From positions 49,640 through 113,639 of the IMG/VR virus record IMGVR_UViG_3300010885_026047: DNA of 64,000 bases; one strand, given 5' to 3'. The notes under the pieces are model-generated. The model was not told the DNA's origin, searched no databases, and worked only from the letters and a program-made list of their open reading frames with translations. Made by a program: the position numbers and the translations under genes. This DNA comes from a virus. Shown in pieces: positions 4,278-30,219 of this stretch (positions are counted from its first letter, which is position 1; each line of letters begins with the position of its first letter).

Positions 4278-4757
4278 TTATCTGTACATCTTCATGTTGT
4301 TGTACTGGCTGTTTACTTCTTGCATGATCTTCTCGTTTCCTGTACCTGTGTCCGGGTGATACATCTTGCAGAGTTGTCTATAACGTTTCTTCACTTCCTC
4401 TGCTGTTCTACAGCTAGAGAAGTAGTCAGTTTTACTTCTTACCCAGTCACTATAGTCTCTGCTGTTATAGCTCCTTGACTTTCTCTGACGAGGTTCAACC
4501 TTCAGCATAGTCAGACAGAACAGGTTTGTTACCCACTTCTGACCAAACTGTACACTCTTAACACTGAAAGAGCCAGACACTTTATCGTTTAACTCTACAG
4601 GTCCTAACAGCTTCTCTATGTTATCGTCAAAGATAACCATATACAGGTCACGTTTGTCATCGGTGTGTATAACGATGTTGACCTTTCGTTTGATCTTACC
4701 GGTACACTCTTCAGACTCACCTACCCAGGTTATCCTGCCTATATAGTCGTATGTCAT
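4278..4757 (-). CDS. OB-fold (DUF3127-like) plus J-domain fusion protein (159 aa)
   Basis: Two parts. Residues 5-88 have the strand pattern and the FDDNIEKLL ... LNDKVSGSFSV ... WVTNLFCLTMLKV series of the Bacteroidota DUF3127 single-stranded-DNA-binding-like OB fold. Residues 110-157 are a J domain: D-Y-F, helix II with KKRYRQL, the diagnostic HPD at 134-136, and a helix III N-x2-Y. J domains recruit Hsp70/DnaK and stimulate its ATPase. A fusion would bring host DnaK to phage DNA or replication complexes (inference). Overlaps the gene upstream by 4 bases. The J-domain call is strong; the OB-fold call is moderate. Confidence 0.75.
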   Translation of the reverse strand: MTYDYIGRITWVGESEECTGKIKRKVNIVIHTDDKRDLYMVIFDDNIEKLLGPVELNDKVSGSFSVKSVQFGQKWVTNLFCLTMLKVEPRQRKSRSYNSRDYSDWVRSKTDYFSSCRTAEEVKKRYRQLCKMYHPDTGTGNEKIMQEVNSQYNNMKMYR

Positions 4758-5012: not shown

Positions 5013-5513
5013 TTAGTCGTTTTTAACCCATTTGCTTTCTCCTACTACCACTCTCTTTGGGTACTTTCTTATCCGGTTACCGTTAAAGAACAACTGCGGG
5101 TTTATCCAAAACACATCTTTGTACTCTGCTGTAGGTGTCATAAACTCATATCTGCAGAGTTCCTTCATAGCCTCTTTGTACGTGTTTATAGACTTTATAG
5201 TGTTCTTCTTCATGTACCACTCACGGTTCAGATATATCCAGTCTTTGTTGACTTCCACGTTATAGAGTAGATATAGATAGAGAGACTTAGCTGCTGCTGA
5301 TAAGTTATAGACCCTGTCTTTACACCCTGCTGACTGGTATATCCGTGTTGACTTAGCTTTTTCTACCAAACGTTCTACAGGTATATCTTCACCTGTTTTC
5401 TCATCTCTGACGAACATCTTACTCTCTACAACAGCAGTAGCTTCTATACACAGTTTACTGGCAAACGGGTTGTTTATCAGCTTGGTTTGGTCTATCTCTT
5501 GTCGTTTCTTCAT
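5013..5513 (-). CDS. RepL-like winged-helix DNA-binding protein (166 aa)
   Basis: The central part (about 69-150) matches the RepL/replication-initiator winged-helix layout: LSAAAKSLYLYLLYNVE, then a helix-turn-helix ending IKSINTYKEAMKELCRYEFM, then the WINPQLFFNGNRIR strand typical of the wing end (yNP-x-FFnGdRi in the family). The first 60 residues are a variable arm. RepL-type proteins initiate plasmid replication, and phage relatives may act as regulators. The promoter immediately upstream is overlapped by palindromic TGTCA-N6-TGACA sites, fitting autoregulation or an origin-binding role (inference). Confidence 0.7.
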   Translation of the reverse strand: MKKRQEIDQTKLINNPFASKLCIEATAVVESKMFVRDEKTGEDIPVERLVEKAKSTRIYQSAGCKDRVYNLSAAAKSLYLYLLYNVEVNKDWIYLNREWYMKKNTIKSINTYKEAMKELCRYEFMTPTAEYKDVFWINPQLFFNGNRIRKYPKRVVVGESKWVKND

Positions 5514-5514
5514 G

Positions 5515-5530
5515 TGTCAGTCTTTTGACA
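5515..5530. promoter_or_regulatory. Operator site 1, TGTCA-N6-TGACA
   Basis: Perfect dyad TGTCAGTCTTTTGACA starting two bases from the start codon of the RepL-like gene and touching the -7 element at 5529-5536. Position fits repression at the transcription start. Confidence 0.65.
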
Positions 5531-5560
5531 AAGTTACAAACTCTTTTTCAACTTGTCAAA
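5529..5560 (-). promoter_or_regulatory. Bacteroidota-type promoter for the RepL-like operon
   Basis: On the minus strand: TTTG (5560-5557), 20 bases, TAACTTTG (5536-5529), matching the -33 TTTG and -7 TAnnTTTG consensus. Predicted start of transcription is near 5523, giving a leader of about ten bases before the ATG at 5513. The -33 box lies inside operator site 2. Confidence 0.75.
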
Positions 5561-5569
5561 TTTTTGACT
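5554..5569. promoter_or_regulatory. Operator site 2, TGTCA-N6-TGACT
   Basis: TGTCAAATTTTTGACT, one mismatch from the dyad at its last base; covers the -33 box. Spacing from site 1 is 39 bases, close to four helical turns. Confidence 0.6.
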
Positions 5570-5591
5570 ACTTTTATCTTGTTTTTGAAAC

Positions 5592-5607
5592 TGTCAACCA
5601 GTTGACA
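5592..5607. promoter_or_regulatory. Operator site 3, TGTCA-N6-TGACA
   Basis: TGTCAACCAGTTGACA; the dyad extends to seven bases per arm (TGTCAAC/GTTGACA). It lies 38 bases from site 2, so sites 1-3 are evenly phased on one DNA face. Confidence 0.65.
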
Positions 5608-5771
5608 CCGATCCTGACAACTTTGTCCTCTGAAACCCTTGTCTGTACTGTCATACAACTACTTTTTACCATACAACACTTTTCCGCCCTTCTTGTTACT
5701 ACGATAAAGTACGACCTACGTAAACACTCTTCATAGCAGCCATAGGTATAGGTTTCAGCAGTTTTTAGCAC

Positions 5772-5787
5772 TGTCAACCTACTGACA
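5772..5787. promoter_or_regulatory. Operator site 4, TGTCA-N6-TGACA
   Basis: TGTCAACCTACTGACA, 180 bases beyond site 3 and distal to the promoter. Could allow looping, or mark the other end of an origin-like region. Confidence 0.55.
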
Positions 5788-5910
5788 ACTATCTACAGCC
5801 AGTTAACCCACCAGATATAACTACTACCTGCAGAGAGTTGTTTCTAGCAGGGTTTCGTGTTTCTTCTACAGGTTGTTGTGTTCTGGGTATAGCTATACTT
5901 CTTCAGGTAG

Positions 5911-9985: not shown

Positions 9986-10693
9986 TCACAAAGGACTTAC
10001 ACATAGTTCTCTCATCAAGTCTGCTATATGTTTAGCCATACGGTGATAGTGGAACTTATCAAAACGAACTAAGTTGATATCGTTATCTACACAGAACTTA
10101 GTCTTGATCTTGTCTACTTCTTTCCTATCAGGCCTGTCGTGGTAGAAGCTGTCGTACTCAACTATGGTGTTGTGATCTGGCAACCAGAAGTCAAAGCGAC
10201 CCCAACCACCTGTAGAGAGCCGGAGACCTGGAAAGCTTATCTCTCTTTCCCACTTGATATCATACTTCTGCAGTTCATCTATGATCATCTGTTCAGGTAC
10301 AGAAGGTTTGAGTGTATCTCCAAAGTTACTATCAAACCACTGCAGATCAGGACGAGGTCTGTACTTGTTATCTGGTAGCTTTTTCCACACTGTAGTTGTG
10401 CAACCTAAGAACTCATCTATCTGTTCGTGTATAGCTTTCTTGTACTCGTAAGAGGTCTTGTCTACAGGTGGTGCAGGTTTAGACAACTTCACTACGGGTT
10501 CCTGAAAAGTAGCTTTAACCGGAGTTTTCAGAGACCTATCTACCTCATGTGGTTTAAGTAACCATATAAGAAAACAAACTACTGCAAGAACAACTATACC
10601 CATAGCACACAAGATACAACAACACTTCCATCTGTGCAAGTGGTAGAGCGAACTTTTTTCACGGTATAGTTTTTGTACAACTACTCTAAACAC
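9986..10693 (-). CDS. Membrane-anchored PD-(D/E)XK / Vsr-like nuclease (235 aa)
   Basis: An N-terminal basic Cys-rich segment and one transmembrane helix (about 27-46, CILCAMGIVVLAVVCFLIWL) are followed by a Pro-rich linker and a nuclease-like domain (about 130-230). That domain has EQMIIDEL (E134), RFDFWLPD (D168), TIVEYD (E179, D181), D-K-I-K-T-K-F and LVRFDKF, the layout of Vsr-like/PD-(D/E)XK phage nucleases. The domain would face the cytoplasm if the N-terminus is outside. It stands alone on the minus strand between rightward genes, like an accessory (moron) gene. A role in cutting DNA at the membrane, for example excluding superinfecting phage, is inference. Confidence 0.7.
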   Translation of the reverse strand: MFRVVVQKLYREKSSLYHLHRWKCCCILCAMGIVVLAVVCFLIWLLKPHEVDRSLKTPVKATFQEPVVKLSKPAPPVDKTSYEYKKAIHEQIDEFLGCTTTVWKKLPDNKYRPRPDLQWFDSNFGDTLKPSVPEQMIIDELQKYDIKWEREISFPGLRLSTGGWGRFDFWLPDHNTIVEYDSFYHDRPDRKEVDKIKTKFCVDNDINLVRFDKFHYHRMAKHIADLMRELCVSPL

Positions 10694-14368: not shown

Positions 14369-14656
14369 ATGCAAATACAAGCAATAGCACAAACCAATGA
14401 TCCCACAAAGATAGCTACCGAATTAGAGGTAACTACAAGAGATCCTACAGAGTTATCTATATACGCTGTCTGGAAGTTGACAGATGTTAATGGTGCTTAT
14501 GTAAATGACGGATCGTGTTTACTAACAGACGATGGCTCAGATCCAAACAATATTATAAATGACTACACAAAGTACTTATCGGATAACTCTTATTTATACA
14601 CTTATGTAGTAAACTTATTAGGATTAACAGTTGTAAGTTTCAATACTATTGTATAG
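14369..14656 (+). CDS. Small fibre-associated protein (95 aa)
   Basis: MQIQAIAQTNDPTKIATELE onward; beta-rich, acidic, soluble. It starts one base after the fibre stop. The upstream alternative TTG at 14351 lies inside the fibre gene and is not used. Shares the AT-rich codon use of the fibre tip, so tip and this gene probably travelled together; a tip chaperone or partner is a reasonable guess only. Confidence 0.55.
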   Translation: MQIQAIAQTNDPTKIATELEVTTRDPTELSIYAVWKLTDVNGAYVNDGSCLLTDDGSDPNNIINDYTKYLSDNSYLYTYVVNLLGLTVVSFNTIV

Positions 14657-14687: not shown

Positions 14688-15128
14688 ATGGCAAACGAAA
14701 AAGAACCACAGATGGACCCTTCGATGTTACCAGAAATATCGGATATCAGTAACTTCCAGGTATCGGGGCAGAGGACAGTTATCAAACCAACTAATGACTA
14801 TGCTATAAAGACCAAAGGTGGGGTGTACTTCCCGGAGAAGACTGCTGAACTAAGACGTAGGACAACACTCTCTAAAGGAGAAGTGATGTGTGTAGGCAGC
14901 GCAGTTACAGAGACAAAAGTTGGACAACATGTATACTTTTATTGGCATGAAGGAGATGGTATGATACGTGAGATCAACAAGACTGGTAAGACTACTGACG
15001 ATGATGTTATCTATGTGATACTACCAGAGTACTCTATACGCGGATATATAGTAGACAATGCTGTAGAACAAACTGCAAAAGAGCTTAGAGATAAGTTGGT
15101 ACAACCCTCTTCTATACTACTTGCATAA
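14688..15128 (+). CDS. GroES-like co-chaperonin (146 aa)
   Basis: Residues about 28-125 follow the GroES fold order: RTVIKPTNDYAIKTKGGVYF (first strands and start of the mobile loop), a basic loop, KGEVMCVGSAV, KVGQHVYFYWHEGD, then VIYVILPEYSIRGYI, comparable to the GEVVAVG ... VKVGDKVLF ... YLILRESDILAII series of GroES. Phage proteins of this type (T4 gp31 is the known example) cap host GroEL so that large capsid proteins fold. The 28-residue acidic N-terminal extension is unusual. Position next to fibre and structural genes fits. Family assignment is by pattern. Confidence 0.65.
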   Translation: MANEKEPQMDPSMLPEISDISNFQVSGQRTVIKPTNDYAIKTKGGVYFPEKTAELRRRTTLSKGEVMCVGSAVTETKVGQHVYFYWHEGDGMIREINKTGKTTDDDVIYVILPEYSIRGYIVDNAVEQTAKELRDKLVQPSSILLA

Positions 15129-28743: not shown

Positions 28744-30219
28744 ATGATACGAGAAGACAAGTTACACACAAAAACCGCTATACTGTTTTCAGGAAGTGCT
28801 TACAATGTGAAGTTCTCCCTGCAGTCACAACTGGAGAACTTCATCCTACCTAACAACGCTGATGTCTTTATACTGACAGAGAGACGTTGTAAGAACAGAA
28901 AAACGGTCCATGGAGTTATCCCTGATGGCTTTGACCCATACTGGCATGAGAAAGCAGCAACTATAACCCATGAAGAGACTGAACTATCTGATAACGATAT
29001 ACAGTTTATCAAAGACACTTTAGGGGACAGGTTAAAGGGTTTCTATCTGAAAGATGATATGTCTGACTATGTAAACTATCTCAGGAACCAGAGAAGTAAG
29101 ATGATGGAGATAGCTAACAACTACCGTCAGTATAACATAGACAACAACTTACCTAAGAGTTTTGGTTTTGCTATAGGTAACCCTGATGATGGTAACCTCC
29201 GGTGTGTAGTAGACCAGTATGGACATGTTCGTAAGTGCTTTGAGTTGATGGCAGAGTACGAACAACAGCACGGTTTTAAGTATGACTATGTAGTTCGTGC
29301 CCGGATAGACTTTATAGTACCTGACGTGATAGACGTAGAACAGTATACGCTCAACCACGACCAACAGTACTTGTATGTTATGGGCAGTGTTAACCGTGAT
29401 CCTTTTGAGTTTGCTGACGAGTTCTGTTGGTTCTGTAAACGACCTATGGCAGATAAGCTCTTTCCATATCTGGACAGGTTGGGTATGTTAGATGACCGGA
29501 AGTATAAGACTTACCTGGAAGAACAAGCTAACGACTTCAGGTTTGGAGCAGAGACACAGTGGGCTATCTTGTTGAAAGAGTTACAGTTACCTATCATAAA
29601 CGTAAAGATCTTTAGGTCAGCTAAGTTTACAGATGGACAAGACGGATATGACTACATGAACTATATGTATCGGTGGGACATGACCAACATAGAAGAGGAG
29701 TATAAGTTAGTTTGCGACTGTCCAAGTGATATCAACGAACACTTACCAAAACTACGTGAGTATGGAGAGCAGTGTACACATATAACTGAACTTGGAACAC
29801 GGTGGGGTAACAGTACTATAGCTTTTATGGCAGCAAAACCTGGTAAGTTTGTATCTTACGATGTGCAGTACAACTCCCGGATAGACTACCTGAAAAGAGT
29901 AGCTAAGGACAACGAGATAAACTTCCACTTCCGGTTAGAGAACGTAGAACAGGTAGAACTGGAAGAAACAGACCTGCTCTTTATAGACACAAACCACCAT
30001 GTAGAACAGTGCAGTGAGGAACTCAGACTACATGCAGATAAAGCAAAGAAGTTTATAGTTTTCCATGACACAACTACTTTCTGGGAGAAGGGACAAGGGC
30101 ATGAAGTCGGTCACGGTTTGAAGTATGCTATAGAACCGTTCTTAGAGCAACACCCAGAGTGGGTACAAGACTACCGAGCTATGAACAACAACGGTTTACT
30201 GATACTGAAGAGGATATGA
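28744..30219 (+). CDS. Putative glycosyltransferase-like domain fused to SAM methyltransferase (491 aa)
   Basis: The N-terminal 300 residues (TKTAILFSGSAYNVKFSLQS, NADVFILTE, YDYVVRARIDFIVPDVIDVE, CWFCKRPMADKLFPYL) resemble uncharacterised sugar-transfer proteins of capsule clusters with a Y-D-Y-V-x-R-x-R-x-D motif. Residues about 325-491 are a class I methyltransferase (ITELGTRWGNSTIAFMAAKP, LLFIDTNHHVEQCSEELRLH, FIVFHDTTTFWEKG), similar to sugar O-methyltransferases of the CmcI type. Overlaps the next gene by 4 bases. Confidence 0.7.
   Translation: MIREDKLHTKTAILFSGSAYNVKFSLQSQLENFILPNNADVFILTERRCKNRKTVHGVIPDGFDPYWHEKAATITHEETELSDNDIQFIKDTLGDRLKGFYLKDDMSDYVNYLRNQRSKMMEIANNYRQYNIDNNLPKSFGFAIGNPDDGNLRCVVDQYGHVRKCFELMAEYEQQHGFKYDYVVRARIDFIVPDVIDVEQYTLNHDQQYLYVMGSVNRDPFEFADEFCWFCKRPMADKLFPYLDRLGMLDDRKYKTYLEEQANDFRFGAETQWAILLKELQLPIINVKIFRSAKFTDGQDGYDYMNYMYRWDMTNIEEEYKLVCDCPSDINEHLPKLREYGEQCTHITELGTRWGNSTIAFMAAKPGKFVSYDVQYNSRIDYLKRVAKDNEINFHFRLENVEQVELEETDLLFIDTNHHVEQCSEELRLHADKAKKFIVFHDTTTFWEKGQGHEVGHGLKYAIEPFLEQHPEWVQDYRAMNNNGLLILKRI

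Follow-up and report, generated by a model that had tools for sequence, protein, structure and literature searches.

The stretch of DNA analysed here (the window) comprises 64,000 nt, bases 49,640–113,639 of a 113,639-bp virus record (IMGVR_UViG_3300010885_026047). Judged from sequence, the virus is a deep-branching crAss-like phage (Crassvirales) of Bacteroidota-type bacteria: its TerL is 22–26% identical to those of crAss-like phages, and PHROG matches were obtained for the portal (phrog_6547, 4e-69), capsid (phrog_11589, 1e-24) and terminase (phrog_6681, 2e-58). The gene of interest, repL (5013–5513, minus strand), encodes a 166-aa RepL-family winged-helix protein (Pfam PF05732) and is the first gene after a promoter that bears a set of dyads, here termed RepL-boxes. 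Elsewhere in the window, a homing-endonuclease-like ORF with a membrane-anchor-like start (9986–10693, minus strand; phrog_559, E 7e-13) lies between oppositely oriented genes. No tRNA or tmRNA was found in the record with ARAGORN.

The assignment of the first gene of the unit as a winged-helix RepL-like protein, made in a preliminary description of this DNA, was upheld by the 166-aa ORF scoring 21.7 bits against PF05732 (cut-off 20.3; E 1.6e-4) over residues 77–148 and by a tblastn match to a plasmid RepL (36.5% identity, E 4e-4). Structure prediction with AF2 from a 10-row family alignment gave a pLDDT of 77, and the resulting model contains a winged helix at residues 73–137, built from helices at 73–87, 97–103 and 109–121 and wing strands at 125–127 and 135–137, with a pLDDT of 83–94 for this block. 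The top viral fold matches to the model were crAss-like phage proteins, one of them named RepL (E 0.009–0.016), and every match to the PDB was weak. A second RepL paralog is encoded in the same record (28947–29435, minus strand; 163 aa from its likely start) and is 39% identical to repL; a search of this paralog against Pfam gave no RepL match.

The repL promoter (5529–5560, minus strand) is of the sigma-ABfr type found in Bacteroidota and has the form TTTG-N20-TAACTTTG, which fits the consensus of TTTG at −33 and TAnnTTTG at −7 as quoted in PMC7366714. It had been described previously as a consensus promoter at these coordinates, correctly, and is here placed on the minus strand. If spacers of 18 to 22 are allowed, the window shows enrichment of the promoter pattern (five occurrences against 1.2 expected), and with spacers of 18 to 21 there are only five in the record, the repL promoter among them. 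As no other consensus promoter of this kind was found on the minus strand from 20.8 to 96.4 kb of the record, a long leftward unit, which would include the genes for DNA polymerase, a DnaB-like helicase and primase, may be transcribed from it.

Four dyads lie on and upstream of this promoter. Box 1 (TGTCAGTCTTTTGACA, 5515–5530) begins with the final TG of the −7 element and overlaps the predicted start point; box 2 (TGTCAAATTTTTGACT, 5554–5569) covers the −33 TTTG; box 3 (TGTCAACCAGTTGACA, 5592–5607), a perfect match to the consensus, precedes the −33 box by approximately 32 bp; and box 4 (TGTCAACCTACTGACA, 5772–5787) lies a further 180 bp upstream, at −274 to −259, where it has no obvious promoter role. 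The overlap of the first two sites with the core promoter elements, and the spacing of 38–39 bp between the first three, had both been noted before and are borne out by the coordinates, the start-to-start distances being 39, 38 and 180 bp. The statement that all four share the same 16-base dyad was slightly overstated, as boxes 1, 3 and 4 match TGTCA-N6-TGACA exactly but box 2 carries one mismatch. A count over the entire record, proposed as a check on whether the dyad is common elsewhere, revealed no exact copy beyond these three, whereas dinucleotide shuffles gave a mean of 0.42 copies per record and a maximum of two in 60 shuffles. Shuffles of the intergenic stretch 5514–5910 gave 0.00095 exact copies each, and two copies were seen in none of 20,000. 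The number of one-mismatch sites in the window is unremarkable (seven observed, 3.7 expected), so that the signal resides in exactness and clustering. One such site, TGTCTGGAAGTTGACA (14467–14482), is located ahead of a rightward gene at 14688, and the number of sites of this kind fits chance. When a motif model built from other phages alone was scanned over the 113.6-kb record, the four boxes took the first four ranks (box 3 first, box 2 second, boxes 1 and 4 third to fourth). The N4 site that ranks seventh in the record, TGTCAACGAGTTGGAA, belongs to the second paralog. It is a degenerate dyad separated from the likely start codon by 12 bp; the run of TATCTTTG followed by TGTCAACGAGTTGGAA stands at −34 to −13, and the position of the dyad relative to a −7 box matches that of box 1 at repL.

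We propose that the four dyads are putative operators of the adjacent RepL protein, which probably binds its own promoter and represses its own production. In this mechanism RepL, most likely as a dimer, would bind TGTCAA-N4-TTGACA; as boxes 1 and 2 cover the −7 element with the start point and the −33 box, respectively, occupancy by RepL should block RNA polymerase. Cooperativity may come from the upstream boxes 3 and 4, box 4 acting either in this way or by looping. RepL would thereby repress its own transcription, and perhaps also that of the leftward unit headed by repL, and such autorepression would cap the level of the initiator. What we observe are the sites, the promoter, the family of the protein, the link between such dyads and this clade of RepL in unrelated phages, and the way the boxes overlap core promoter elements; the identity of RepL as the binding protein, the repressive effect of binding and the assistance of box 4 by cooperativity or looping are inferred. 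RepL could additionally act in replication at the dyads.

The preliminary description had offered an autoregulatory circuit and an iteron-type origin side by side, and the comparison of loci set out below strongly favours the former, because the dyads travel with a clade of RepL proteins, overlap core promoter elements and are otherwise rare in each genome. For the origin, in which RepL would bind the repeats, open the DNA and start replication at the cluster, we found no support and consider it quite unlikely. RepL-family proteins are indeed plasmid initiators (PMC5703833), the stretch 5514–5620 is 66% AT, and at some of the related loci two sites stand 19–21 bp apart; however, the sites in the window are mirror dyads at irregular spacing rather than a regularly phased array of direct repeats, the cluster contains no DnaA-box-like site (the closest one being at 4672), and the origin of the P1 lytic replicon is thought to lie within repL rather than upstream of it (PMC9948254). 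GC skew around 5.5 kb, suggested earlier as a check for an origin, does not switch at the locus: the cumulative minimum is at 63.1 kb of the record (approximately 13.5 kb in the window), some 8 kb from repL at 55.1 kb, and coincides with a change of gene direction.

Relatives of RepL were collected by protein sequence, and at further RepL loci of unrelated phages related dyads of the general form TRTCAA-N3/4-TTGAYA cluster on the repL promoter. The locus designated L040 is on a 42.7-kb phage contig within a Bacteroidota MAG and encodes a RepL 39% identical to that of the window; here TGTCAAATAATGACA occupies the spacer of the repL-operon promoter, between its −33 and −7 elements, and TGTCAAATTTTGACA is found 196 bp beyond it, ahead of the first gene of the operon. 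At L051 (RepL 25% identical), TGTCAAATTTTGACA, identical to the L040 site, is located in the −33 region, just upstream of a −7 box. Degenerate dyads are present at L048 (three, N4), L062 (four) and L063 (two or three, weak), and L065 and L066 have three N3 dyads apiece, likewise degenerate, near repL. The dyads are on or beside the promoter at L040, L048, L051, L063, L065 and L066, no promoter being recognized at L062, and at repL and paralog 2 of the window phage, as at L065 and L066, the final TG of the −7 box is also the start of a dyad. Dyads of one locus mostly share a single spacer length (4 in the window, L048, L062 and L063; 3 in L065 and L066), with L040 and L051 having a spacer of 3 in their exact sites and degenerate sites with a spacer of 4 alongside. 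Distances between dyads at the other loci range from 17 to 196 bp.

The association was assessed in two ways. The first used the strict pattern TGTCA-N5/6-TGACA, which derives from the window and L040: in the 400 bp upstream of the gene it is matched exactly at L051 (shuffle P 0.002) and with one mismatch at L048 (P 0.02). In a leave-one-out scan, a PWM was built without the genome under test, and the 150 bp before repL (before the operon in L040) were compared with the other scan windows of that genome, each being scored by adding up its three best sites. The repL-upstream segment ranked top genome-wide in six genomes, its score being reached by none of the other scan windows in the window record (0/2264), L040 (0/845), L048 (0/522), L051 (0/1531), L062 (0/1443) or L063 (0/1503), the last of these being weak in that 29 of 1503 scored as high when two best sites only were summed. 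The same scan found nothing in L049 or in L027, a phage related to that of the window. Conservation of the sites in relatives, which had been suggested as a check, is thus seen in six genomes with these two exceptions. When weighing such results, it is important to consider that the matrix was made from sites in other loci that had already been chosen by eye, and that the general consensus was written after viewing L048 and L062–L066; the consensus is therefore post hoc, and near-independence is limited to the strict-pattern tests (L051 and L048) and, to some extent, the leave-one-out scan.

L049 encodes a RepL of the broad clade (33% identity over its length), and TRTCAA-N3/4-TTGAYA dyads are absent; a long inverted repeat before repL on this 226-kb contig (L049:2766–2816, GAAATAGTTTTGATT...AATCAAAACTATTTC) was considered and was not counted as a RepL-box. 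When 396 Bacteroidota genomes were searched for RepL there were five matches, of which one was the L040 contig itself and the others were without the dyad cluster, and the cluster was likewise not found in a Bacteroides fragilis RepA plasmid. RepL gave no match in an annotated phage collection. A scan of 14 records with PF05732 matched crAssphage only, an undercount, since the window's own RepL was missed by a first look.

The presence of like sites on the promoters of related genes in unrelated phages makes self-control by RepL the most likely function of the dyads, and it also bears on the identity of the binding protein. Phage switches often employ a separate repressor, and a second RepL (39% identical) is encoded in the same record, so we considered whether another phage protein, the paralog included, represses repL through the dyads. 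This seems unlikely. With ORFs of at least 45 aa compared by blastp (E 1e-4), RepL alone is common to the window phage and all five of the phages set against it, and the L062 and window phages share nothing else; no other protein is common to all dyad-bearing phages, within the sensitivity of blastp, below which divergent non-RepL repressors could fall. Nor can the paralog alone account for the other phages, where one RepL only was seen. CRP-type operators have the form TGTGA-N6-TCACA, a geometry like that of TGTCA-N6-TGACA, and a host regulator, either CRP/FNR-like or SOS-type, might thus be envisaged to read the dyads and make repL respond to the state of the host. We regard this as very improbable, as no host regulon is visible in the MAG: its 3.5 Mb contain four TGTCA-N3..8-TGACA sites, two of which are the TGTCA-N5-TGACA pair at the L040 repL promoter. 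Spacer length, moreover, varies between phages.

A further comparison is provided by the kin of the window phage. No close relatives emerged when RepL, DNA polymerase or terminase was used as a single-protein query, and a scan with the capsid protein identified four related records in IMG/VR (capsid 75–85% identical). In the kin phages examined, with a capsid 75% identical and, in the one carrying it, a DNA polymerase 48% identical, the RepL is 29% identical to that of the window and groups with the crAssphage RepLs, and no dyads precede it. Phages with such similar capsids but a RepL of another clade thus lack the dyads, which argues that the dyads follow the type of RepL and not the phage. 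Two of the kin, L034 (4064–4448) and L035 (5649–6033), carry a tmRNA with the tag ELYDGSFAESELIAA upstream of repL.

Autorepression by RepL, as favoured here, would be directly testable, as there is now a defined candidate operator of 15–16 bp, a candidate protein and a promoter, and the RepL-box offers a sequence signature for finding RepL replicons. More tentatively, RepL and its TRTCAA-N3/4-TTGAYA boxes might form a mobile replication-control module exchanged among unrelated Bacteroidota phages, with a spacer of 3 or 4 specified by each RepL, so that the operators would define compatibility groups; we hold this broader proposal to be rather doubtful. If true, it would give such phages plasmid-like control of copy number and superinfection, as the RepL of a resident phage could repress or admit another phage. 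RepL control may matter for the persistence of crAss-like phages in gut Bacteroidota, where they do not integrate; for crAssphage, itself a carrier of two RepL genes, a replicative state like that of a plasmid has been proposed, as reported in PMC11844821 and PMC12118408. In the literature searched, much subscription literature lying outside the search, we found no conserved operator family for RepL and no study of RepL control in phages.

Among known systems, the P1 lytic replicon (repL/oriL) also involves a phage gene called repL, acting in lytic replication; oriL is placed inside the P1 gene (PMC9948254) whereas the window dyads are upstream. CrAssphage (Carjivirus communis), like the window phage, has two RepL paralogs (PMC7551546), yet these belong to a different clade and their upstream regions are without these dyads. 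Shortly upstream of its second repL (L022, approximately 1240–1310), a direct repeat, TTTATACCATACATGGAATAGATTTCG, occurs twice, approximately 44 bp apart, and is a candidate cis element of the crAssphage RepL clade. The RepL plasmid initiators (PF05732, the staphylococcal pSN2 family) resemble the window RepL in having an HTH DNA-binding domain and a size of approximately 18 kDa, and according to a review of staphylococcal plasmids no copy-number control mechanism had been identified for them (PMC5703833). The window phage differs from the pSN2 family in having a conserved dyad set on the repL promoter. An autoregulated initiator is in itself an already-known kind of system. RepE of F and Pi of R6K are autorepressed winged-helix initiators with inverted-repeat operators overlapping the promoter of the initiator gene. 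They belong to an initiator family unrelated to RepL, and no direct-repeat iteron array was seen in the window, but the arrangement is alike in that the window dyads overlap the promoter of a gene for a predicted winged-helix initiator.
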